Source of the DNA: Verrucomicrobiia bacterium
Lineage (GTDB): Bacteria > Verrucomicrobiota > Verrucomicrobiia > Limisphaerales > Fontisphaeraceae
Direction: 5' to 3'
Assembly: GCA_026414565.1 (NCBI GenBank)
Contig: JAOAIT010000018.1
Location: 186,001 to 250,000 of the forward strand
Length of the DNA stretch: 64,000 nt
Shown here: positions 26,148 to 40,339 of the stretch, piece after piece
Numbering within the stretch: position 1 is the first letter of the stretch
Layout: each line of letters opens with the position of its first letter
Program-made: the position numbers and the translations under genes
The notes under the pieces: model-generated
Databases searched by the model: none
Told to the model about the DNA's origin: nothing
The model's input: the letters and a program-made list of their open reading frames with translations, nothing else

Positions 26148-26231
26148 CCGCTTCCAAGCAAGTCGGGCGTTGTCACAGTACGTTAACGCCACGCTTGTCA
26201 GCCTGTCGGGCTTGTCCTAGTGTTGCCCGTG

Positions 26232-28103
26232 ATGACAGTGACCGATGATGGCACCACCCCGGTCGAACGACAACGACTCGAAGTGGACATTGTTTGCGTG
26301 GGATTTGGACCGGCGACAGCGGGATTCTTAACCACGCTCAGCCGCTACCTAGTCAATCCGGACGGCACGCCAGCCCTGCCCAGTCGCGTTTGTCCCGGGA
26401 TGCCCCTGCAAGTGGTCTGTTACGAGCGGGCGGATGATGTAGGCTTTGCTGTTTCCGGCGTCGTCACCCGCGCCCGGGCGATTCGCCAAAGTTTCCCTGA
26501 TCTGGACCCCGCCCAGATACCCATGGCGGCCCCCGTGGCCGAGGAAAAAGTGCTTTACCTGTTGGACCCCGTCGGTGCCAGCCGGCGTTCGGCGGGTTTG
26601 CGGGTGGCCGATAAGGTGATCCAAGGCCTGCGCTGGGCCCTGCCTTGCGAGCATCAGGCCATGGAGCTGCCATGGACACCTGAATTTCTGCACAAATCGC
26701 CGGGTTTGGTGATGTCTCTTGGGCAGTTCAACCAGTGGGTTGCTTCGCAGCTCTTGAGCTCGGGGCTGGTGCAAATCTGGCCGGGCACGCCCGTAGCTCA
26801 ACCGTTGATAGAGGGGGACAGGGTCAAGGGAGTTCGTTTGGTGGATCAAGGGACGGACAAGTTGGGACGCCCCGAGGCCGGCTACCTGCCCGGCATGGAG
26901 GTGCTCGCCGATCTCACCGTGGTTGGCGACGGGCCGGTAGGGCCGATTGGCCAGCTCTTGGACCAGCACTTTGGCCTGCCTGCAGGCCATCATCAGCACG
27001 ATTGGGCGGTGGGGATGAAAGTCGTGGTGGACCTGCCGGAAGGAGTGGACTTGAAACCCGGCACCGTCCTGCACACCTTTGGTTATCCAGAGCCGGAAAT
27101 TTTTGGTTTTCTTTACGTACATCCTCAGCGCGTGGCCTCCCTGGGCATTTTTGTGCCCTCCTGGTTTGACAGTCCGGTGCGAAATGCCTACCGCTACCTG
27201 CAACATTGGATGCAGCATCCGTATCTATGGCGATACCTCAAAGGCGGCACCTTGCGCTCTTGGGGAGCCAAATCCTTGCAAGAATCCGGGCGCCGCGGTG
27301 AGCCCTATCTTGCGGGTAACGGTTATGCCCGCATCGGCGAAGGCTCCGGCGCCACCAACGTTCTCACCGGCTCCGGGGTGGACGAAGCCTGGCACACCGG
27401 AGTCCTGTTGGCCGAAAGCGTGGTGGAATTGGCCAAGGCCGGCCAGCCCTACACCCGCGAAAACCTGGAACGCACCTATGTCAAACGCCGCCGCGAGAGC
27501 TGGCTGGATAAGGAATCCCAAATCGCGGAGCGCAGTCGCGACGGTTTCCAGCGCGGCGTTCTGACCGGCATGATGGGCATGGCGCTGGCCGGTTTAACTC
27601 AGGGCAAACTGGCCGTGAAAGGCCGTCCTCTGCCTCCCCATGGCCGGGTGCCAACCCTGGAAGAATATTACGCCGGTAAAATTGCACCGGAGGAAATCGC
27701 GCGGATTCGCCAAGAATGCCACAGCCGCGGGACTTCAGTTCACGGTGCCCTGATGGAACGGGCAGGTTGGCCGCCCATTGAGTACGATGGCCGGTTGCTC
27801 GTGTCGCATCAGGATGCCCTGCTGATGGGCGGCAAGGTACAGGCGCCGCCCGGTTATGCCGATCATGTGTTGTTTCTGTACCCTCGCCTGTGCGAAAGCT
27901 GCGGGACGCAAGTTTGTGTCGAACTGTGCTCCGGCCAGGCCATTGCCCCTGGTCCGCATGGGGTTCCCCTATTTGACCGCGAAAAGTGTGTGCATTGTGG
28001 CGCCTGTCTTTGGAATTGTGCACAGGCCAATCCGGAGCGTCCCGAGCAGGGCAACATTGCCTTTCGGGCAGGTGCCGGCGGCTTGCACTCGGCAGAAAAT
28101 TAG
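26232..28103 (+). CDS. ETF-quinone oxidoreductase-like flavoprotein with eight C-terminal cysteines
   Basis: 623 residues from the ATG at 26232; a GTG at 26220 is also in frame. Residues 10-80 hold the FAD dinucleotide fold (VDIVCVGFGPATAG). The middle follows the ETF-quinone oxidoreductase/FixC pattern, with GEGSGATNVLTGSGVDEAWHTG cut short here. The C-terminus carries two cysteine groups: Cys 554, 557, 562 and 566, and a classic ferredoxin set Cys 586, 589, 592 and 596 (CVHCGACLWNC). Standard ETF-QO has one 4Fe-4S cluster with four cysteines. It is expected to pass electrons from a flavoprotein to quinone at the membrane. No etfAB genes are adjacent. Confidence 0.85.
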   Translation: MTVTDDGTTPVERQRLEVDIVCVGFGPATAGFLTTLSRYLVNPDGTPALPSRVCPGMPLQVVCYERADDVGFAVSGVVTRARAIRQSFPDLDPAQIPMAAPVAEEKVLYLLDPVGASRRSAGLRVADKVIQGLRWALPCEHQAMELPWTPEFLHKSPGLVMSLGQFNQWVASQLLSSGLVQIWPGTPVAQPLIEGDRVKGVRLVDQGTDKLGRPEAGYLPGMEVLADLTVVGDGPVGPIGQLLDQHFGLPAGHHQHDWAVGMKVVVDLPEGVDLKPGTVLHTFGYPEPEIFGFLYVHPQRVASLGIFVPSWFDSPVRNAYRYLQHWMQHPYLWRYLKGGTLRSWGAKSLQESGRRGEPYLAGNGYARIGEGSGATNVLTGSGVDEAWHTGVLLAESVVELAKAGQPYTRENLERTYVKRRRESWLDKESQIAERSRDGFQRGVLTGMMGMALAGLTQGKLAVKGRPLPPHGRVPTLEEYYAGKIAPEEIARIRQECHSRGTSVHGALMERAGWPPIEYDGRLLVSHQDALLMGGKVQAPPGYADHVLFLYPRLCESCGTQVCVELCSGQAIAPGPHGVPLFDREKCVHCGACLWNCAQANPERPEQGNIAFRAGAGGLHSAEN

Positions 28104-29280: not shown

Positions 29281-29826
29281 ATGGAATACGGAACTACGAT
29301 AGAACTTAAGCGCGATTGTGAGGCGGTGCAGATTCCCTCCGGCGAGCGGGCCGTCCTGGCGAAAGGCACGCAAGTGCAAATTACGCAAACCTTGGGCGGA
29401 ACCTACACCGTCTATACCCCCCATGGGTTGTTTCGTATCGCCGCCAAGGACGCCGATGCACTCGGCGCCGAGGTGGGCCAGTCCGCCCCGGCGGCTGCCG
29501 AAGCCTCCGGCCCCCTCACCGAAGAGGCCGTTTGGGCGGTGCTCAAGACTTGTTATGACCCGGAAATCCCGGTGAACATTGTGGATTTGGGCCTGGTGTA
29601 TGATCTGCACATTGAACCCACCCCCTCCGGCCGGAGCAAAGTCGCCGTCAAAATGACCCTGACCGCTCCAGGGTGCGGCATGGGGCCGGTCATTGCCCGC
29701 GATGCCCAGGAAAAAATCTTGAGCCTGCCGGGCGTGGAAGAGGCTGATGTGGAAGTGGTGTGGGACCCGCCCTGGCATCAGTCCATGATCAGCGTGGAAG
29801 GGCGCCGCATTCTGGGCTTGGAGTAA
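29281..29826 (+). CDS. sufT: SufT-like Fe-S assembly protein (MIP18/DUF59 family)
   Basis: 181 residues. A beta-rich N-terminal 65 residues (IELKRDCEAVQIPSGE, then LGGTYTVYTPHGLFRI) are typical of the SufT family and absent from short DUF59 proteins. From residue about 80 comes the MIP18/DUF59 domain with CYDPEIPVNIVDLGLVYD and the TAPGCGMGPVI motif carrying the conserved Cys. SufT-type proteins help mature or distribute iron-sulfur clusters. No suf genes are adjacent, but the ETF-QO-like gene 1.2 kb upstream encodes a probable Fe-S client. The start is the ATG at 29281. Confidence 0.88.
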   Translation: MEYGTTIELKRDCEAVQIPSGERAVLAKGTQVQITQTLGGTYTVYTPHGLFRIAAKDADALGAEVGQSAPAAAEASGPLTEEAVWAVLKTCYDPEIPVNIVDLGLVYDLHIEPTPSGRSKVAVKMTLTAPGCGMGPVIARDAQEKILSLPGVEEADVEVVWDPPWHQSMISVEGRRILGLE

Positions 29827-29886: not shown

Positions 29887-29953
29887 AAAGTGCCTATTTC
29901 ATGTTAATTTCCTGTCCCCGAAAACGCATTTGTGCTACATTTGGGTGACAACC

Positions 29954-32900
29954 ATGAAGTTTTTTCGTGCTCCCGCGACCGCGGCGGTGGTGGTCGGTAT
30001 GGTTTTAGGGTATGCAGTCACCGCTCACGGCCAAACCACCAATGGGGTGTTGCGGGAGGTTTTTAGGGGAATCAGCACAGGCACAATATCCGCCCTTACC
30101 AGCGCTCCCAATTACCCCAACAACCCCGACCTCGAGGAAGTTTTAACTCAATTTTTTGAGTGTCCCCGGGAATTTTCTGATTATTACGGCACCCGGCTTC
30201 GGGCCCTACTCATCCCTCCGGTCACCGGCACCTATTATTTTTATATCGCCAGCGATGATCAGGGGCAGTTGTTCCTTAGTTCCGATGAAAACCCGGCCAA
30301 TAAACAATTAATAGCCAGCGTCAATTCCTGGACCGCCGCCCGCGAATACAATAAAGAACCCAATCAACGCTCGGCCGGCATTGTTTTGACCAATGGCCGC
30401 CGGTATTACATCGAGGCCTTGCAGGCGGAAGGGGCAGGGGGGGACAATCTGGCCGTGGCCTGGCAAATGCCCGGGCAGCAGCCCCTGCAGAATAACGCTG
30501 ATCCTATTCCGGCCATTTACGCGGTTCCCTATGGCCTGGGACCGCCCACAATCACCACGCAACCGCAAAATATCAGCGTCGTGGAGGGCGGCTCCGGCAG
30601 CTTCTCCGTGGCCTTGGCCCGCTATATCGGCGCTACTTTCCAGTGGTATAAAAACGGCCTGCCGGTGGCGGGGGGTACCAATGCCATGCTTACGGTGGGG
30701 CCGGTGGCCTTGAGCGACAATGGCGCAACCTTCCGATGTGCCATTACCAATGCCTACGGCGGCACCAATTCCCTCGTCGCCACACTCACCGTGACCGCCG
30801 ACATCACCCCGCCGGTTTTCCAATCCGGTGCCTGGCTGGGACATCCACAGGTGTTGTCGCTCCTCTTTTCGGAACCGCTCGAGGCGGCTTCCGCCACCAA
30901 CCCCGCCAACTATTCCATTGCTAGTGGGTTTCAAGTCTTGGGTGCCGGTTTTGGGCCGGACACGCGAACGGTGGTTCTATACACCACCCCGCTGACCAAT
31001 GTGACTTCCGTGACCGTCACGGTTAACAACGTGCGTGATCGCGCCACCACCCCCAACACCATCCCGGCCAACAGCACCCGCACCATCAGTTTGAGCGTGA
31101 CCCCGCTGGATTCAGCTTTACGCTGGCCCGCCCGCGAACCGGCCGGCCCGGCCACCCGCAACGGCCCGCTGGTGATCAGCGAAATCATGTATAACCCCAC
31201 CAACCGCAGCGACGGCCGGGATTTGGAATTTCTGGAAATTTACAATGCCCAGTTGTGGCCGGAAGAAATCGGTGGTTTTCGCATTACGGGCGCAGTCGAA
31301 TACACATTCCCCACAGGTACTGTCATACAAGCCAACAGTCGTTTGGTGGTGGCCGCGGTGCCGGCGGATGTACAAGCGGTTTATGGAATCAGCGGGGTCC
31401 TGGGACCGTTCAGCGGCCGATTGCAAAACGAAGGAGGCACCTTGCGCCTGCGCAATCATCTGGGGGCTGTGCTCTTTGAGGTGGAATATTCCGACGACTG
31501 GCCCTGGCCGGCCGCTGCCGACGGCGGGGGACATTCGCTGGTGCTCGCCCGGCCCTCTTATGGGGCCAACGATCCGCGGGCCTGGGCCGCCAGTGAACGC
31601 CTCGGTGGCTCACCGGGCACTGACGAACCCGTGATGGTTAATCTCTACCGCGCCATCATGTTCAACGAGGTGATGCCCTATCCCGGACAGGGAGAGCAGC
31701 CCTTCCTCGAGTTGTTCAACTACGCTGCAGGCGGATTAAATCTCTCCGGTTGTATTCTCACGGATGAAACAGGCACCAACCGCTATGTATTTCCAGCCAA
31801 TACCGTCATACCCGGCATGGGCTTTTTGGCCATTTCCCAAAGTCAACTGGGTTGGTCGCTCAATCCAGAGGGGGGCAAGCTATTCTTGCGAGATCCTTCG
31901 CAGATCAGGGTGATTGATGCGGTAAAGTATCCGGGGGTGGAGGCTGGACGCTCTTGGGGCCGCAGCCCGGATGGCGGCATCGAATTCTCCCACCTGACCA
32001 CCCCTACCGCAGGACGGGCCAATGCCGCCCCGCTGACGCCGGAAGTGGTAATCCATGAAATCATGTTCGATCCCATCACTGAAAATGCCGATGATGAATT
32101 TATTGAATTGCACAATCCGGGCTCGCAGCCGGTCAACCTCAGCAAATGGAGAATTCGCGGAGATGTCAGTTATACCTTCCCCAACCCTACCGTCATCCAA
32201 CCGGGCGGCTTTCTCGTCATTGGCGCGAACACCAGTTACCTGCGGACGCGCTACCCCAATCTGAATGCCCAGAACTCCGTGGGAGATTACCAGGGGCGCC
32301 TTGCCAATCGCGGCGGCTGGCTGCGTCTGGAAAAGCCGGTCCAACTGTTCTACACCAATCAAAATGCCCAGGTGGCGGAAGCCAAATACGAGGTGGTGGT
32401 CCATCAAGCGCGCTTTCAGGCTGGCGGCCGCTGGCCGGCATGGACGGGTGGCGGCGGCAGCAGTCAGGAGCTGGTGGACCCCCGGGTTAACGGCCTCTGG
32501 GCCATGGCCTGGCGGGGTTCCGACGAATCTGGCCAGTCGGATTGGGTGGTGATTCAGCACACGGGTGTGTTGGATAACGGCATGGATACCGCTGACTCTT
32601 TGCAGGTACTCCTGCTGGGGCCGGGGGAGTGTCTGGTGGACGATGTCGAGGTCATCCCTGCCGGTGGCACCAATCTGGTGTTGAACGGCTCGTTTAACCA
32701 GGACGCCAGCGGATGGTTCTTTCAAGGCACCCATTGCCGCTCCAGTTGGGAGCCGCTGCAAGGTTACGGCGGCCCGGGCTGCCTCTATGTGCGCGCCAGC
32801 TCCCGCGGTGACACGGGGGCCAACCGCATTCGCACCCGCCTGGCTCGCACATTGAATGCCGGCGAAACGGCCACGATTCGTGCCCGGGTCAAGTGGCTCA

Positions 32901-35900
32901 AGGGACATCCAGAAATTCTGCTGCGTTTGCGAGGTAATTACCTCGAAGCTACCGGCAACATGTTGTCCAAGAGCAATTTCGGCACCCCAGGCCGTGCCAG
33001 CCGGCCGCTGGGAAATGGAGCCCCGGTGATCATGGACGTCACCCATAGTCCGGTATTACCCACCGCCGGCCAGACGGTGCGGGTCATTGCGCGGGTTTTT
33101 GATCCGGACGGTCTGTCCGCTTTGTTTGTGCGTTACCGGGTGGACCCCGCCACCAATTGGAATAGTGTGGCCATGTCCTACCACGGCGCTGGCTATTACT
33201 CAGCTTCCATTCCCGCCCAATCATCAGGAGCAGTAGCAGCCTTTTACATTCTGGCGGCCGATCTGTACGGCTTGACCCGGCAGTTTCCTGAGGACGCCCC
33301 CGAGCGCGAATGTTTGATCCGTTGGGGTGAATCCACTCCTTCCGGGCAACTGGGCGTGTATCGCATGTGGCTGACCCAGAAGACCATTAATCAATGGACC
33401 ACCCGTGAGAAACTCAGCAATGATCCGCTGGACGGTACTTTTGTCTATGGCAATTCGCGGGTGATTTATAATGCTGGCAACCAGTACAGTGGCAGTCCCT
33501 GGCATTCACCGGGCTTCAACTCGCCCCTGTCGGGGTTCTGCGACTTCGCCTTGAGTTTTCCTCCCGATGAGCCCTTGCTGGGCAGTGAGGAACTGACTCT
33601 CCAATGGCCGGGCAATGGGGGAGGGGACGGCACCGCCCAGGGCGAGCAACATGCCTACTGGCTGGCTTATCAACTGGGCCTGCCGTATTGCTATCGTCGT
33701 CCGGTGCATTTCTACGTCAACGGTAATCGGCGTGGCGATCCCACCATTGAGGATGTGCAACAGCCCAACCGGGAATTTGTCCAAACGTGGTATCCGGATC
33801 AACCACGCGGCGATTTGCATAAAATCCAGATTTGGTTTGAATTTGACGACCAGGCCAGCACTTTCGCAGCCGCAGGGGCCAACCTTGGCAATTACACCAC
33901 CACCGGCGGACAGAAAAAACTGGCGGTGTATCGGTGGACGTGGAGCAAGCGTGCCTATGGCAACCAGGGCAACAACTACACCAACCTCTTCCGCCTGGTG
34001 GACGCCGCCAACACCTCCGCGAGTGGAGAAAATTACACGCGGGCCATTGAGGCCGTCATAGATGTCAACCAATGGGCCCGCCATTTCCTGGTGGAAAAAC
34101 TGGTGGGCAACTGGGACAGTTATGGCAATGGTGGCGGCCAAAATATGTACACCTACATGCCCCAGGGCGGCACCTGGAAGATGTTAATCTGGGATATTGA
34201 TTTCGCCTTTTATTCCGGCAGTCCCACCGACGGTTTGTTCGGTTTTACTGATGGGCCTCTTTCGCGGCTCTTCAGCCATCCCCCCTTCGCCCGGGCCTAC
34301 TGGCGAGCCATTAAGGACGCGGCGGAAGGGCCACTGCAGCCCTCGCGCTCCAATACCATTTTAGACTATCGCTACAATGCCTTGCGCGCCAACGGCATCA
34401 GCCTTTCGGCGCCGGACAACATTAAGAATTACATCAGCGGGCGGTTGCAATACCTGCAAAACACCGTGCTGCCGCAAATCGCCAGCCCTTTTCAGGTCAC
34501 CTCATTGCCCGGCGGGAACTGGACCACCAACCGCAACTTGTTGACGCTCTCCGGCACCGCCCCCATCGAGGTTGAATCCATTACCATCAACGGCATACCC
34601 GTGCCGGTGGTATGGACAACGGTTACTAATTGGACAGCCTCCTGGGCTTTGCAGCCCGGCACGCAAACGCTCACCGTGGCCGCGCTGAATGGACGGGGAC
34701 AAACCCTGTCCACCACCACCCGCACGGTGACCTATACTGGCACGCCGGAATCCCCTTCAGACGTTTTGGTTATTAATGAGATCATGTACCAACCCCCCTG
34801 GCCGGGGGCGGAATATGTGGAAATCTATAATCGTTCGCAAAACAATGCGTTCGATCTGTCCAACTGGCGGTTGCATGGCGTGGATTATCAATTCCCTCTC
34901 GGCACCATCATTCAACCCAATGGTTACCTGGTGGTGGCCAAAAGCATTGCCGCCTTCAACACTGCTTATGGCGCTTCGCCAGCCGTCATCGGGGAGTTTG
35001 GCGGCAATTTGGACAAGGACGGGGAAGTCATTCGTTTGGAGAAACCGGCCTCAGATACCAACCTGCTGGAGGTCGTGGACGAGGTTTATTATGAGACCAT
35101 GCCACCCTGGCCGGTCGTAGGCGCCCAAGAGGGGGCATCCCTGCAACTGCGCGATGCGGCCCAGGACAACAGCCGGGCTGCCAATTGGACCGCTCTGACC
35201 ACCAACCTGGCTGCGCCGCCAGCATGGCGGTTCATTTCCGCCAGCGGGGTTGCCGGCAGCGGGGTCATTTATGTGTATCTCCAAACCGCCGGCGATTGTT
35301 ACATTGACGATTTGAAATTGGTGGCTGGAAGCAATCCGGACTCCGGCGCCAACCTGCTGGTCAACGGCGATTTTGAAAGTCCTTTGGCCGGCACGTGGAA
35401 TGTATCCGCCAACCATGCGGGCTCCTATATTGATACCGCAGTCAAGCGCAGCGGCAATTCCAGTTTACATCTCATGGCCTCCAGCGGCGGCACCACTCGT
35501 GATTCTTCCATCTGGCAGGATGCCTCCAGCCGCCTGACCCAGGGACAAACTTATACCTTGAGTTTCTGGTATTTGCCGGGAGCCAGCGGCGGGCCATTAA
35601 CGATCCGGTTCTCCGGCAGTTGGATTCGCATTGATGCCAATTTGGGCGCCGCCCAGGTCCAACGGGCCACTCCGGGCGCACCCAATTCGGTCGCCACCTC
35701 CCTGCCTGCCTTCCCGTCATTATGGCTCAACGAAGTTCAACCGTTGAACGTTTCTGGCCTGCGGGATCGTTTTAACGAAGCCGAGCCATGGGTGGAGCTT
35801 TTCAACAGCGGCACCAATACCGTCAGCCTTTCGGGGTTTTACCTGGCCAGCCAGTTCACCAACCTTGCCCAGTGGGCTTTTCCTACCAACGCCTCCATCG

Positions 35901-38900
35901 GGCCGAGGCAATTTTTGACCGTATGGCTTGACGGTGAACCCGGCGAAACCAGCTCCAACGAGTTGCATGCCTCCTTCCGGTTGACCTCGCCCACCGGCAG
36001 TGTAGCTCTGGCCCGGCTAGTGGGTGGGCAAACCAGCCTGGTGCACCACTTAAACTTCCGCGTGCCGGGACCGGACCGCAGTTACGGTTTGTATCCCGAT
36101 GGCCGGGCAGCCAGACGACAAATCTTCGCCCTGCCCACACCAGGCGCAACCAACAACCCGGCTTACCCGCCTGTTTCGGTGTTCATCAATGAGTGGATGG
36201 CGGATAATGTCAGCGCCCTGGCCGATCCTGCGGATGGCAACTTCGAAGACTGGTTTGAATTATTCAATGCCGGCAACACTACCGCAGACCTTTCAGGTTA
36301 CTACCTCTCCGATGATTTGGCCAACGCCTTCAAGTGGCGCATCCCGCAGGGCACCCTCATGCCCCCGCGCAGTTATTTATTGGTTTGGGCCGATGGCGAG
36401 CCTGAGCAAAACAGCGGCGGAGACTTGCATGCGAATTTCCGTTTGAGCGCCAGCGGAGAAAGCATCGGCTTGTATGGCCCGGACGGCACGCTGGTGGATT
36501 TGGTGGTATTTGGGCCGCAGGCCCCAGATCGCAGCGAGGGCCGATTTCCCGATGGCGCTGAATACATTGGGCCGATGAATATTGCCACCCCGCGCACTCC
36601 CAACCGGCTCAACTTTACCAACTCCCCGCCCGCGCTGGCGCCCTTGCCCAACCAGGTGGTGGCTGAGGGCACCCTCTTGACTTTTTCCTTCCAAGCCTCG
36701 GATCCGGATGCGGGACAAAATCTTGTATTCACGCTGGAACCCGGCGCCCCGCCGGGCGCCAGCGTGACGCCGGAAGGCACGTTTTCCTGGCTGCCCACTG
36801 AGGAGCAGGGTGGCCAGACCTACACCTTCACCGTCCGGGTGCGCGACAACGGCACCCCGCCGTTATCGGTTACCCAGTCATTTTCCGTTACCGTGGAAAA
36901 GGTGAATAGTGCCCCGCAGCTCCTTATCAGTGGTGATTTTGTCATCTATGAAGGCGAGCATTTTGCCCTTCTGGCTCGTGCCACTGACGGAGATCTGCCC
37001 CGGCAGAGCTTACGTTTTTCGTTGGGAGGCGAGCCTCCCTTGGGAGCGCAGATCAACCCCACCAACGGCCTGTTGACCTGGACGCCCTCGGAAATCCAGG
37101 GCCCAGGATTATATGCCCTGACCGTGCGGGTAATTGACGATGGCCAGCCGCCCCTGATGGATTCTCAAATCATTCGCATCACGGTTCTGGAGTCCAATAC
37201 TCCGCCGCGGTTTCCTCAACTCGGCCCCTTCGCCGTAGCCGCCCAGCAAAACCTGAACCTTGCTTTGAACGCGAGCGATGACGACTGGCCGGCACAGTAC
37301 TTGACATACGCCTTTGCCCAAACGCCTCCCTCCGGCGCCACCCTCACGCCAGACGGGCGCTTTAACTGGACGCCCACTTTGTCGCATACCGGCCAGACTT
37401 TCACCATCCATGTACAGGTTACAGATGATGGCATCCCACCGGCCAGTGCGACCACGGCCTTTACCGTTGTTGTTCATGGACAAAACACCGCCCCCGTGCT
37501 GGCGGCTGCAGCTTCCAACTTGGTGGCCATTACCGGCGAGGAGTTGAGGGTCACCAATGTGGCTTGGGACGCTGAAGCCCCGCCGCAAATCTTGCGATGG
37601 CAGATGCTTGCCGGGCCAACCAATGCGTCTCTGGAGGAACTTACCGGCACGTGGCGCTGGCGTCCGCAAAATTTGGACGCCGGAACGACGCAGTCGGTGC
37701 AACTGGTGGTCACGGATAATGGCCTGCCCCCGCTGAGCGCCACTCAATCCTTCGCCGTGATTGTTTTGCCTGCCGCCGCCGCTCCGCCGCTGACGGCGGT
37801 GACGCGAAGTGTGCTGGAAAGAGAACCCCTGGAATTTTTGGCCGGGCCGCTGACGAATACCTTGGGCCAGGCATTAAATTACGTCATCGTGCGGGCACCA
37901 CGTTTTGGAACAGCCACCATACTGCCTGACCAGCGTGTGCGCTACTTGTCAGGCGGCTTTTTCAACGGTATGGACACTTTCGAGATTGGCTATCTCGTCA
38001 ACGGAATCCTGGTTCGCACCGCGCCAGTGACCGTAACCGTCGGAATTGTCAATGACGTGGCTCCTTACCTGTTCGAGTTTCCGCTCAATTATCGGGCCGG
38101 GGCGCAACCGGTGGCGGTGGTCACAGGGGATTTCAATCGGGACAGCAAACTGGATGCGGCTTGTGCCAATGCGGCCGGCAATTCAATTTCACTGCTTTTT
38201 GGCAATGGGCAGGGGGGATTGGCGGCCCCTGTGGAATTGCCGATTGGGGGTGTGGTAACCCATCTGGCTACCGGCGATTTTAATCGGGACAGTCGCTTGG
38301 ATCTGGTGGTGGCAGGGGGGCGCGACAACCGCATCAGCCTCTTAATCGGGGGCGGCGATGGCACCTTTGCCTCGCCCTTCCACGTGCCCTCAGGCAGCAA
38401 CGTTACTGCCGTCGCCGTGACCGATCTCGATAAGGACGGCAAACCGGACGTCCTCTGCACGCACTTTGACGATAACACTTTGGGTATTCATTTTGGCAAC
38501 GGGGTGGGGTGGATTCGTAATTCCACGTCCATCCCAGTGGGCACTCAACCCCTGGCGTTGCTGGCTGATGACTTCAACGCCGATACCCGGCCGGATATCG
38601 CGGTGGCCGAATACGGCCAGGGGACGATCAGAATCTTGTTGGGAGCGGGAAACGGCGGCTTTTTATCACAACATACCTACATCACCGGTACCGGCCCGCG
38701 GGCCATGGCCGCCGGCGACTTCAACGGGGACGGACGCCGGGATCTGGCTGTGGCGCACAGTGACGGTCTGCTGGTCGTTCTGCGCAACGTGGGCCTGGGA
38801 CTGTTTGCGGCCACCAACCAGGTGTGGCTGGGGGGCAGCCCTGCCGGCCTCCTGGCGGCGGACATCAATCGGGACGGCCTGCTTGATTTGGTGGTCAGTG

Positions 38901-40339
38901 ACGAGGCCGACAGCAGCCTGAAGGTGCTGCTGGGACTGGGCGATGGCACATTCCAGAATTATTATCAGGATCAGGGCGCTTTTTACTGGTTGCAAGGTCT
39001 GCCTGGCGGACTGGCCTTGGGCGACTTTAACAAAGACACCTTCGCCGATGTGGTGGTGGCCCAGTGGGGTTCGGACGAAGTGGCCGTGCTGCTCAATAAC
39101 TATCAACCCCGCGTCCTGCCCATGAAACTGACGACGTTGGAGGACTGGCCCCTGGAAATCCGCCTGCGCGGCAGCACCGGACCTCTCCAGTTTCAATTTG
39201 GCTCCGGCCCCACCAACGGCACCCTGACGCTTAAACGTGCGCCTGACGTTTATTGGTATCGGCCGCACACCAATGCCAACGGGCGTGATGTCATTGAGTA
39301 TTTCGCCTTTGATGGCCAGCGCTACTCGGCCCCGGCCAAAATTGCCGTCACCATCCTGCCCGTCAATGATCCCCCGGAAATCAGCCTGGCCACCAACGTG
39401 GTGGTGGCCCCCGAGGACTCAGGCTATTTCACCGTGCCGGGATTCATCACCCGCGCCGTTGGCGGTCCGGCCTCCGCGTTGGATGAGCAACGGCAGGCTG
39501 TGCGCTTTCAACTGACTGCCGCGCAACCGACCTTGTTTGCCGCGCAGCCCGCCATCATCAGCGGCGGCGCCCTGCGTTTTATGCCGGCGAAAAATCAATT
39601 TGGTGAGACCTTGGTAACGCTGGTGGGGCGGGATAATGGCCCGGTGGCCAATGGCGGCCAGAATCTCTCTGCCCCCGTACAATTCCTGATCCGTGTGGAA
39701 AATGTAAATGATCCGCCCGTGCTGGGTTACCTTCCCGGCAAAACCGGCTACGAAGATCAGGAAATTCGCTGGGACTTCACAGTTAGCGATTTGGAGTCTC
39801 CGCCTGACAGCCTGACATTTAGTTTTGCCTCCACCAACGAGGTGCTGCTGCCGCCCACCGCCCTGCGGGTGGAAGGGGCCGGCACCAACCGTGTGCTCGT
39901 GGCCCGGCCCGCCACTAATGAATTTGGCCGCACCCTAATAACGCTCACCGTCAGTGACGGCACCAACAGCGCCAGCCGCAGTTTTTCCCTGTTGGTGTAC
40001 GGGGTAAACGATCCCCCCGTCATCGCCCTTCTCACCAACCGGGTGGTCTTGAACGCCGAGCCAACCACCCAATCTATACCCGTAATCAACTGGGCTGGCT
40101 GCTTCAACGGCCCGGAGAATGAAAGTGCACAGACCTTACGTTTTGTAGTGGTCAGCCCCCGCAAGGATTTGTTCCGATTGCAACCCGCCATCAGCCCACA
40201 GGGCGTTTTAAGCTGCCAGCCGGCCGCCACGGTGGGCACGGTGGAAGTCCTGGTGTACGGCGTGGATTCCGGCGGCGTCTCCTATGGCGGCCAGAACACC
40301 AGTGAACCGGTGGCTTTGACGATTGAAGTGCGCCCTTAA
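29954..40339 (+). CDS. Giant secreted lamin-tail/CotH/FG-GAP surface protein
   Basis: 3461 residues from the ATG at 29954 (a TTG lies 24 bases upstream). A signal peptide ends near residue 27. Domains by approximate residue: PA14 (32-193), Ig-like (196-283), and lamin-tail domains at 400-529, 563-660 and 694-816. Then come a beta-sandwich (870-1010), a CotH kinase-like domain (1143-1510; IWDIDFAFYSG), lamin-tail 1603-1722, another beta-sandwich (1796-1896), and lamin-tails 1923-2066 and 2075-2219. The rest is four He_PIG repeats (2223-2606), a cadherin-like unit, a seven-blade FG-GAP propeller (2713-3050) and cadherin-like repeats to the end. No PEP-CTERM or LPXTG anchor is visible. Adhesion or binding of extracellular polymers is inferred. 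Confidence 0.93.
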   Translation: MKFFRAPATAAVVVGMVLGYAVTAHGQTTNGVLREVFRGISTGTISALTSAPNYPNNPDLEEVLTQFFECPREFSDYYGTRLRALLIPPVTGTYYFYIASDDQGQLFLSSDENPANKQLIASVNSWTAAREYNKEPNQRSAGIVLTNGRRYYIEALQAEGAGGDNLAVAWQMPGQQPLQNNADPIPAIYAVPYGLGPPTITTQPQNISVVEGGSGSFSVALARYIGATFQWYKNGLPVAGGTNAMLTVGPVALSDNGATFRCAITNAYGGTNSLVATLTVTADITPPVFQSGAWLGHPQVLSLLFSEPLEAASATNPANYSIASGFQVLGAGFGPDTRTVVLYTTPLTNVTSVTVTVNNVRDRATTPNTIPANSTRTISLSVTPLDSALRWPAREPAGPATRNGPLVISEIMYNPTNRSDGRDLEFLEIYNAQLWPEEIGGFRITGAVEYTFPTGTVIQANSRLVVAAVPADVQAVYGISGVLGPFSGRLQNEGGTLRLRNHLGAVLFEVEYSDDWPWPAAADGGGHSLVLARPSYGANDPRAWAASERLGGSPGTDEPVMVNLYRAIMFNEVMPYPGQGEQPFLELFNYAAGGLNLSGCILTDETGTNRYVFPANTVIPGMGFLAISQSQLGWSLNPEGGKLFLRDPSQIRVIDAVKYPGVEAGRSWGRSPDGGIEFSHLTTPTAGRANAAPLTPEVVIHEIMFDPITENADDEFIELHNPGSQPVNLSKWRIRGDVSYTFPNPTVIQPGGFLVIGANTSYLRTRYPNLNAQNSVGDYQGRLANRGGWLRLEKPVQLFYTNQNAQVAEAKYEVVVHQARFQAGGRWPAWTGGGGSSQELVDPRVNGLWAMAWRGSDESGQSDWVVIQHTGVLDNGMDTADSLQVLLLGPGECLVDDVEVIPAGGTNLVLNGSFNQDASGWFFQGTHCRSSWEPLQGYGGPGCLYVRASSRGDTGANRIRTRLARTLNAGETATIRARVKWLKGHPEILLRLRGNYLEATGNMLSKSNFGTPGRASRPLGNGAPVIMDVTHSPVLPTAGQTVRVIARVFDPDGLSALFVRYRVDPATNWNSVAMSYHGAGYYSASIPAQSSGAVAAFYILAADLYGLTRQFPEDAPERECLIRWGESTPSGQLGVYRMWLTQKTINQWTTREKLSNDPLDGTFVYGNSRVIYNAGNQYSGSPWHSPGFNSPLSGFCDFALSFPPDEPLLGSEELTLQWPGNGGGDGTAQGEQHAYWLAYQLGLPYCYRRPVHFYVNGNRRGDPTIEDVQQPNREFVQTWYPDQPRGDLHKIQIWFEFDDQASTFAAAGANLGNYTTTGGQKKLAVYRWTWSKRAYGNQGNNYTNLFRLVDAANTSASGENYTRAIEAVIDVNQWARHFLVEKLVGNWDSYGNGGGQNMYTYMPQGGTWKMLIWDIDFAFYSGSPTDGLFGFTDGPLSRLFSHPPFARAYWRAIKDAAEGPLQPSRSNTILDYRYNALRANGISLSAPDNIKNYISGRLQYLQNTVLPQIASPFQVTSLPGGNWTTNRNLLTLSGTAPIEVESITINGIPVPVVWTTVTNWTASWALQPGTQTLTVAALNGRGQTLSTTTRTVTYTGTPESPSDVLVINEIMYQPPWPGAEYVEIYNRSQNNAFDLSNWRLHGVDYQFPLGTIIQPNGYLVVAKSIAAFNTAYGASPAVIGEFGGNLDKDGEVIRLEKPASDTNLLEVVDEVYYETMPPWPVVGAQEGASLQLRDAAQDNSRAANWTALTTNLAAPPAWRFISASGVAGSGVIYVYLQTAGDCYIDDLKLVAGSNPDSGANLLVNGDFESPLAGTWNVSANHAGSYIDTAVKRSGNSSLHLMASSGGTTRDSSIWQDASSRLTQGQTYTLSFWYLPGASGGPLTIRFSGSWIRIDANLGAAQVQRATPGAPNSVATSLPAFPSLWLNEVQPLNVSGLRDRFNEAEPWVELFNSGTNTVSLSGFYLASQFTNLAQWAFPTNASIGPRQFLTVWLDGEPGETSSNELHASFRLTSPTGSVALARLVGGQTSLVHHLNFRVPGPDRSYGLYPDGRAARRQIFALPTPGATNNPAYPPVSVFINEWMADNVSALADPADGNFEDWFELFNAGNTTADLSGYYLSDDLANAFKWRIPQGTLMPPRSYLLVWADGEPEQNSGGDLHANFRLSASGESIGLYGPDGTLVDLVVFGPQAPDRSEGRFPDGAEYIGPMNIATPRTPNRLNFTNSPPALAPLPNQVVAEGTLLTFSFQASDPDAGQNLVFTLEPGAPPGASVTPEGTFSWLPTEEQGGQTYTFTVRVRDNGTPPLSVTQSFSVTVEKVNSAPQLLISGDFVIYEGEHFALLARATDGDLPRQSLRFSLGGEPPLGAQINPTNGLLTWTPSEIQGPGLYALTVRVIDDGQPPLMDSQIIRITVLESNTPPRFPQLGPFAVAAQQNLNLALNASDDDWPAQYLTYAFAQTPPSGATLTPDGRFNWTPTLSHTGQTFTIHVQVTDDGIPPASATTAFTVVVHGQNTAPVLAAAASNLVAITGEELRVTNVAWDAEAPPQILRWQMLAGPTNASLEELTGTWRWRPQNLDAGTTQSVQLVVTDNGLPPLSATQSFAVIVLPAAAAPPLTAVTRSVLEREPLEFLAGPLTNTLGQALNYVIVRAPRFGTATILPDQRVRYLSGGFFNGMDTFEIGYLVNGILVRTAPVTVTVGIVNDVAPYLFEFPLNYRAGAQPVAVVTGDFNRDSKLDAACANAAGNSISLLFGNGQGGLAAPVELPIGGVVTHLATGDFNRDSRLDLVVAGGRDNRISLLIGGGDGTFASPFHVPSGSNVTAVAVTDLDKDGKPDVLCTHFDDNTLGIHFGNGVGWIRNSTSIPVGTQPLALLADDFNADTRPDIAVAEYGQGTIRILLGAGNGGFLSQHTYITGTGPRAMAAGDFNGDGRRDLAVAHSDGLLVVLRNVGLGLFAATNQVWLGGSPAGLLAADINRDGLLDLVVSDEADSSLKVLLGLGDGTFQNYYQDQGAFYWLQGLPGGLALGDFNKDTFADVVVAQWGSDEVAVLLNNYQPRVLPMKLTTLEDWPLEIRLRGSTGPLQFQFGSGPTNGTLTLKRAPDVYWYRPHTNANGRDVIEYFAFDGQRYSAPAKIAVTILPVNDPPEISLATNVVVAPEDSGYFTVPGFITRAVGGPASALDEQRQAVRFQLTAAQPTLFAAQPAIISGGALRFMPAKNQFGETLVTLVGRDNGPVANGGQNLSAPVQFLIRVENVNDPPVLGYLPGKTGYEDQEIRWDFTVSDLESPPDSLTFSFASTNEVLLPPTALRVEGAGTNRVLVARPATNEFGRTLITLTVSDGTNSASRSFSLLVYGVNDPPVIALLTNRVVLNAEPTTQSIPVINWAGCFNGPENESAQTLRFVVVSPRKDLFRLQPAISPQGVLSCQPAATVGTVEVLVYGVDSGGVSYGGQNTSEPVALTIEVRP
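38129..39110 (+). repeat. Seven FG-GAP/VCBS repeats coding a calcium-loop propeller
   Basis: Seven DxNxDxxxD-type loops recur near 38129, 38276, 38423, 38568, 38717, 38861 and 39022, about 147 bases (49 residues) apart; examples are GDFNRDSKLD and GDFNGDGRRD. Each is followed by a GxGDGTF-like segment. The spacing and count fit the seven blades of an integrin-alpha-like propeller inside the giant surface protein. Confidence 0.85.

Follow-up and report, generated by a model that had tools for sequence, protein, structure and literature searches.

The gene at 26232 to 28103 of the 64,000-nucleotide stretch analyzed here (the window) encodes a protein resembling ETF-quinone oxidoreductase (ETF-QO) in which eight cysteines lie in two groups near the C-terminus. 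ETF-QO feeds electrons released in fat oxidation into respiration. An initial annotation had taken the second group as the classic ligand set of a single [4Fe-4S] cluster and the first as a possible second Fe-S or metal site, perhaps for extra electron storage or a different donor. The locus raises the question whether the protein indeed holds a second cluster and, if so, to which electron path this cluster would belong. The relevant features of the window are:

26232..28103, + strand: gene for an ETF-QO-like flavoprotein of 623 aa with a predicted C-terminal 2[4Fe-4S] domain; intact open reading frame, GTG at 26220 as alternative start
26286..26324, + strand: N-terminal dinucleotide (FAD) binding motif DIVCVGFGPATAG, with D19, G24, G26, P27 and G31 invariant in 40 sequences
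27003..27278, + strand: match to Pfam ETFQO_UQ-bd, the quinone-binding region of ETF-QO (PF21162, E 1e-9, residues 262-353 in GTG numbering)
27891..27929, + strand: first cysteine group (C554, C557, C562, C566), invariant, aligned with ETF-QO and EtfX
27987..28019, + strand: second cysteine group (C586, C589, C592, C596), invariant; C586/C589/C592 match pig CVHCKTC and EtfX C61/C64/C67 via the ETF-QO profile

The ETF-QO-like identity proposed initially was confirmed at the level of domain, sequence and fold. A Pfam scan revealed the ubiquinone-binding domain PF21162 above threshold (39.3 bits, cut-off 27.7) together with sub-threshold matches to 4Fe-4S domains. PF05187 (Fer4_ETF_QO) gave no match to the protein at E values up to 1 and none anywhere in the genome at E 0.001. 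Therefore, the protein was classed as ETF-QO-like and assigned to a sister family. A phmmer search of the PDB matched porcine ETF-QO (2gmh, 4.2e-28), and the family profile matched Thermotoga maritima FixC/EtfC (7koe_C, 6.7e-6). PDB sequence matches of the tail were dicluster subunits of molybdoenzymes; phmmer found no PDB match for the C-terminal 85 aa alone. An AlphaFold2 model built with the family alignment (pLDDT 84.4, pTM 0.88) matched the fold of 2gmh (2gmh_B) over model residues 1-618 with Z 32.6, an rmsd of 2.8, 531 aligned residues and 24% identity, and on this match the N-terminal motif is a predicted FAD site. The second fold match was 7koe_C (EtfC/FixC, Z 26.1), followed by geranylgeranyl reductases (Z about 20-23); outside model residues 13-462 the comparison is with ETF-QO alone. 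Profile alignment by hhalign of the family with fused verrucomicrobial ETF-QOs gave E 3.9e-49 for the whole length and 1.4e-9 for the C-terminal domain alone. A tree of 53 rows placed a 100/100 branch between the 13 fused ETF-QOs and the ETF-QO-like family. Judged by sequence and model, the protein is a full-length member of a distinct ETF-QO-like family. A frameshift or chance artefact is ruled out by the intact reading frame and the invariant cysteines.

Counted from the ATG at 26232, the tail follows the pattern C554-x2-C557-x4-C562-x3-C566 ... C586-x2-C589-x2-C592-x3-C596. Both groups and all eight positions had been numbered correctly in the initial annotation. All eight cysteines are invariant columns in alignment A1, whose 40 sequences comprise the window gene and 39 of the 71 related loci described below; the split-frame L069 and the truncated L070, L072, L073, L075 and L076 were excluded, and the others were thinned for diversity. 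When all 71 loci and the window-genome copy (L001) were aligned in 72 rows, six of the cysteine columns held Cys in 68 rows and the other two in 69. The remaining rows are gapped, which we attribute to the truncated L072, L073 and L076 and the split-frame L069.

The division of these cysteines into two ligand sets was deduced from the pig enzyme. Two alignments linked through the ETF-QO profile place the pig FCPAG cysteine at C566 and the pig CVHCKTC cysteines at C586/C589/C592. In pig ETF-QO the position of C596 is occupied by D, and positions 554, 557 and 562 are not Cys. Consequently, 566/586/589/592 form the classic set and 554/557/562/596 the additional one. The initial assignment of 586/589/592/596 as the classic set was wrong in one member, since C596 stood in for C566 and belongs with the first group. 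The classic cysteines of the pig enzyme count as 528/553/556/559 in the 2gmh chain, and in precursor numbering we take them to be 561/586/589/592; this near-coincidence with the numbers of the window protein may be the source of the misassignment. By alignment, C566 with C586/C589/C592 are the predicted ligands of the proximal, classic ETF-QO cluster. For an additional, distal cluster we propose C554/C557/C562 with C596, an ordinary 2[4Fe-4S] ferredoxin pattern. The pairing of the ligands and the assembly of both clusters are predictions; given its invariant ligands, a second Fe-S cluster in the protein is very probable. Independent acquisition of an unrelated ferredoxin domain was also considered and rejected: although dicluster subunits of molybdoenzymes match the tail, the C-terminal domain can be aligned with the tail of ETF-QO over its whole length, and the alignment continues through the NI-F...GG segment that follows.

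A second cluster would not set the protein apart from known ETF-QO-type proteins. Fifteen of 23 loci matching PF05187 were fetched, and 13 of them (from L110-L123) formed alignment A4; L121, without a frame by pattern, and the stand-alone L124 were left out. All 13 fused verrucomicrobial ETF-QOs carry C-x2-C-x7-C-x3-C ahead of CxxCxxC, and six of them the eighth cysteine. T. maritima EtfX (7KOE) is described in the available text of its report as having two [4Fe-4S] clusters, both in the path to menaquinone, with 7.1 Fe per complex, two EPR species, and mutated ligands C29/C33 for the distal and C61/C64 for the proximal cluster (PMC10734219). Counted on the alignment of 7koe_D with the tail, C29/C33 correspond to C554/C557 and C61/C64 to C586/C589. 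For FixX, two [4Fe-4S] motifs are mentioned in the available text of another report (PMC6085437). The stand-alone FixX-like L124 from the same phylum has the four classic cysteines only. Thus, one- and two-cluster forms both exist, pig ETF-QO and L124 being single-cluster forms.

A single cluster had initially been taken as the rule for ETF-QO. According to the sequences compared, the two-group pattern is already known, and bacterial relatives do not in general follow the pig enzyme with its single cluster. The cysteine finding thereby corrects a generalisation drawn from that single cluster. The initial reading, in which an otherwise classic single-cluster ETF-QO has in its first group an unusual extra site for electron storage or for a new donor, is very unlikely. 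In its favour are the confirmed invariance of all eight cysteines, a single-cluster FixX-like protein in the same phylum, and the divergence of the partner ETF described below, whose EtfB alone has no PDB sequence match at E 0.01. However, the first group is present in all 13 aligned fused ETF-QOs of the phylum and in EtfX, and both EtfX clusters are part of the wire to quinone. Electron storage is less likely than a lengthened wire. The idea of a different donor retains some support from the unusual divergence of the partner ETF.

The partners were identified from the gene neighbourhood. A scan of 84,980 species genomes for close relatives only yielded 71 loci with 53-72% identity. Their labels include Verrucomicrobiota, Kiritimatiellota, Lentisphaerota, Sumerlaeota, Latescibacterota, Acidobacteriota, Gemmatimonadota, Thermodesulfobacteriota, Myxococcota, Bdellovibrionota and Actinomycetota, and most of the records are metagenome bins. 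Rumen Kiritimatiellae and Solidesulfovibrio are among the carriers, the latter with the cultured S. alcoholivorans DSM 5433 and S. aerotolerans DSM 16695. In related loci of other phyla the gene order is acyl-CoA dehydrogenase (~740 aa) - ETF-QO-like gene - etfB - etfA, and this gene cluster was seen in records labelled as ten phyla. EtfB/EtfA were found in the fetched flank of 42 of the 71 loci and the dehydrogenase in 47, in 46 of these on the same strand. Both partners were present in 38 flanks, the dehydrogenase only in nine, ETF only in four and neither in 20. From the 29 loci without flank ETF, 24 were chosen and 23 genomes searched (L031, L033, L072, L073, L076 and L074 being left out). 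The same EtfB was recovered in 18 of these 23 genomes, three times as a partial or split hit, and was not found in the other five, which are draft assemblies. No other neighbour family judged to be real genes occurred in more than eight of the 71 loci, and those eight were generic ABC ATPases. By eye, an acyl-CoA synthetase-like reading frame lies upstream of L023 and L029.

Genes near the ETF-QO-like gene in the window were also considered as partners. MlaEFD, an AI-2E transporter and a SufT-like gene were rejected, as among the fetched flanks this neighbourhood occurs only in the same-genus genome G001 (L077); other flanks gave at most generic ABC ATPase matches to it. An iron-sulfur cluster assembly protein of the FeS_assembly_P family is encoded at 29281-29826 (+), two genes downstream of the Fe-S flavoprotein, and this neighbourhood likewise recurs among the fetched flanks in L077 only. 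The region 29930-40339 (+) holds a 3469-aa open reading frame with six lamin-tail domain stretches, a CotH kinase domain, a carbohydrate-binding module, and Ig/cadherin-like and FG-GAP repeats.

In the genome of the window a candidate etfAB partner, for which the initial annotation had proposed a search elsewhere in the genome, was found, and the module genes lie on three contigs:

contig C18, + strand: ETF-QO-like gene
contig C10, 7591-8851, - strand: divergent EtfBA
contig C53, 157748-159946, - strand: ~740-aa acyl-CoA-dehydrogenase-like gene, the only one detected in this genome

As the four genes are unlinked here, their partnership in this genome rests on the other genomes. Within the order, 14 of 58 genomes, including that of the window, contain the ETF-QO-like gene; the G054 copy is in two pieces on two contigs. 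G029, with a 28-residue fragment and no dehydrogenase found, was counted as a fifteenth carrier. ETF genes of any type occur in 23 of the 58 genomes. The divergent EtfBA type was present in all 15 carriers (own included) and in none of the 43 non-carriers. A check of this type by sequence gave 379-542 bits for EtfB in the 14 carriers other than the window's genome, and the query EtfB had no match at E 0.001 in ten ETF stretches of eight other ETF-bearing genomes. The dehydrogenase was detected at E 1e-60 in 14 of 15 carriers and in 0 of 43 others. Of the 14 genomes with this dehydrogenase, 13 contain no second PF02771 match. Linkage and co-occurrence together are strong genetic evidence that this ETF would be the redox partner of the ETF-QO-like protein.

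Sequence features characterize the partners as genuine but divergent members of their families. With a PF01012 cut-off of 26.7, the window-genome EtfA scored 77.6 bits and EtfB 42.2 bits. The L008 copy of the dehydrogenase exceeded the cut-off in both acyl-CoA dehydrogenase domains and the window-genome copy in the N-terminal one. Its catalytic Glu, aligned with the YEG of known enzymes, was invariant in 37 of 37 rows, comprising 36 of the 47 loci, kept for frames of 690 aa or more, and the window-genome copy. Alignments A3 and A2 contained the window genome plus 20 and plus 15, respectively, of the 42 loci with flank ETF. EtfA (L003, contig C10) keeps Q[VI]GQTG and conserved His residues in the FAD region, and its FAD domain shows an invariant CCHGEEPH followed by VGWRFI..ERRA. 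The canonical EtfA motif at that place is the ISGAIQH region, unlike CCHGEEPH.

Further ETF genes were noted in the order. A second EtfBA pair of the window's genome starts at 215701 on contig C53 (L002, L004) and is followed by a NarI-like membrane protein with a sub-cut-off Nitrate_red_gam hit only, which we take to be likely of the EMO/EtfD type. Close relatives of this pair (EtfB at least 246 bits) were present in 8 of 15 carriers, own included; non-carrier ETFs reached at most 97 bits. In the carriers G033 (C7) and G045 (C305) an extra ETF lies beside a FixC/ETF-QO-like protein of 28-30% identity (L164/L167). The EtfB hits of the ruminant-sample carriers G264 and G272 each contain one in-frame TGA, which may reflect assembly errors or codon reassignment.

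On the observed sequences, their conservation and homology and the observed linkage and co-occurrence of the four genes, we consider it likely that the protein is a quinone-linked ETF dehydrogenase with two clusters in series in a dedicated wire between acyl-thioester, ETF and quinone. The acyl-CoA-dehydrogenase-like enzyme would be the donor (or acceptor) at the far side, and the divergent EtfBA would exchange electrons between this enzyme and the ETF-QO-like protein. The distal cluster (C554/557/562/596) would lie next to ETF, a placement at the ETF-facing end that follows the EtfX precedent, with the proximal cluster (C566/586/589/592) after it. From there electrons would pass to FAD and then to quinone, and the whole wire could operate forwards or backwards. 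We infer the sequence of electron transfer, quinone as the acceptor, and the direction. The substrate would be an acyl thioester, probably not degraded via classical beta-oxidation in the organism of the window. Against this wire stand the missing PF05187 match, the scattered genes in the window's genome, the 20 of 71 loci without either partner in the flank, the 5 of 23 genomes without EtfB, and G029 with its gene fragment and no dehydrogenase found.

We regard it as highly improbable that the proteins form a bifurcating complex of the FixABCX/EtfABCX type, in which NADH would reduce ferredoxin and quinone. In its favour, the structure of a relative with two clusters, EtfX, is known, EtfC ranks second among the fold matches, and at E 0.01 EtfA matches one PDB entry only, the C. 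difficile EtfA from a bifurcating complex (E 0.0065). However, the C and X parts are fused here, as in ETF-QO, and the conserved neighbour is an acyl-CoA dehydrogenase; EtfB is too divergent for judging a bifurcating flavin by sequence.

A conserved acyl-CoA dehydrogenase with its ETF would also fit an ordinary beta-oxidation chain, with electrons passing from acyl-CoA via ETF to quinone during fatty-acid breakdown. The gene set and its order agree with such a chain, as does the catalytic Glu kept in the dehydrogenase. In the order, however, thiolase (PF02803, Thiolase_C) was over cut-off in 0 of 15 carriers versus 25 of 43 others (Fisher p 4e-5, uncorrected for kinship; carrier G001 had a below-cut-off match). 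Enoyl-CoA hydratase (ECH_1, PF00378) was over cut-off in 2 of 15 versus 22 of 43 (Fisher p 0.014, kinship ignored); both models may miss divergent enzymes, and several of the genomes are incomplete drafts. The window's genome has neither thiolase nor ECH_1 and a single acyl-CoA dehydrogenase. Given the absence of a recognisable thiolase from the 15 carriers, classical beta-oxidation is unlikely in the lineage of the window. Beyond the order the survey covered 40 of the 71 loci: thiolase was absent in 24 of these carriers, the two cultured Solidesulfovibrio isolates among them, and present in 16. Hence, absence of beta-oxidation is not a rule. The module does not require beta-oxidation but may coexist with it, and that it is an ordinary chain for fatty-acid breakdown is unlikely. 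Across the 58 genomes of the order module and thiolase are mutually exclusive, a pattern that points to two different lifestyles among its members.

The same wire might be used in reverse, so that electrons from quinol would pass through the ETF-QO-like protein and EtfBA to the dehydrogenase and reduce an enoyl thioester. Such a flow could let the cell respire or detoxify an unsaturated acyl compound, or could serve a step in lipid synthesis. For an enoyl product the carriers of the order offer no recognisable thiolase and, in most cases, no hydratase, and EtfA weakly matches the acryloyl-CoA reductase ETF family, far below cut-off. Solidesulfovibrio and the rumen Kiritimatiellae are among the carriers; Solidesulfovibrio oxidizes lactate and alcohols. 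Reverse flow is possible, and we regard it as doubtful.

Returning to the two-cluster wire, we tentatively suggest, as quite possible, that the four genes form a self-contained acyl-thioester:quinone module which in many carriers works without beta-oxidation, for example in making or reducing an unsaturated acyl chain via the quinone pool. A paper on this four-gene module was not found by title and abstract in the literature covered, subscription journals being mostly outside it. We consider the module a modest but real lead. Genomes in which thiolase is not detectable, and in most of the order enoyl-CoA hydratase neither, have retained a fatty-acid-type chain together with a divergent ETF of its own. 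If its purpose lies outside fat breakdown, the acyl-CoA dehydrogenase/ETF/ETF-QO chain would gain a further role, which could be tested in the cultured carriers.

Among known systems, ETF:menaquinone oxidoreductases of the EtfD/EMO type also connect ETF to quinone, but in the available text of a report on EtfD this protein is described as having no homology to mammalian ETF-QO (PMC13083937). Porcine ETF-QO (2GMH) shares with the window protein the full-length fold, the domain order, the ETFQO_UQ-bd region and the CPAG...CVHCKTC ligand set; it differs in lacking the distal group, in the D in place of C596, and in an overall identity of about 21-24%. The fused verrucomicrobial ETF-QOs (PF05187) have the same fused architecture and the first cysteine group, whereas the spacing in this group is x7 there and x4 in the window protein, a 100/100 branch lies between the two, and PF05187 misses the family of the window. 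T. maritima EtfC and EtfX (7KOE) resemble the protein in the two-cluster binding motifs, the arrangement of cysteines and the fold of EtfC (Z 26.1). They are, however, separate chains of a four-subunit NADH/ferredoxin bifurcating complex, whereas here both parts are encoded by a single fused reading frame.
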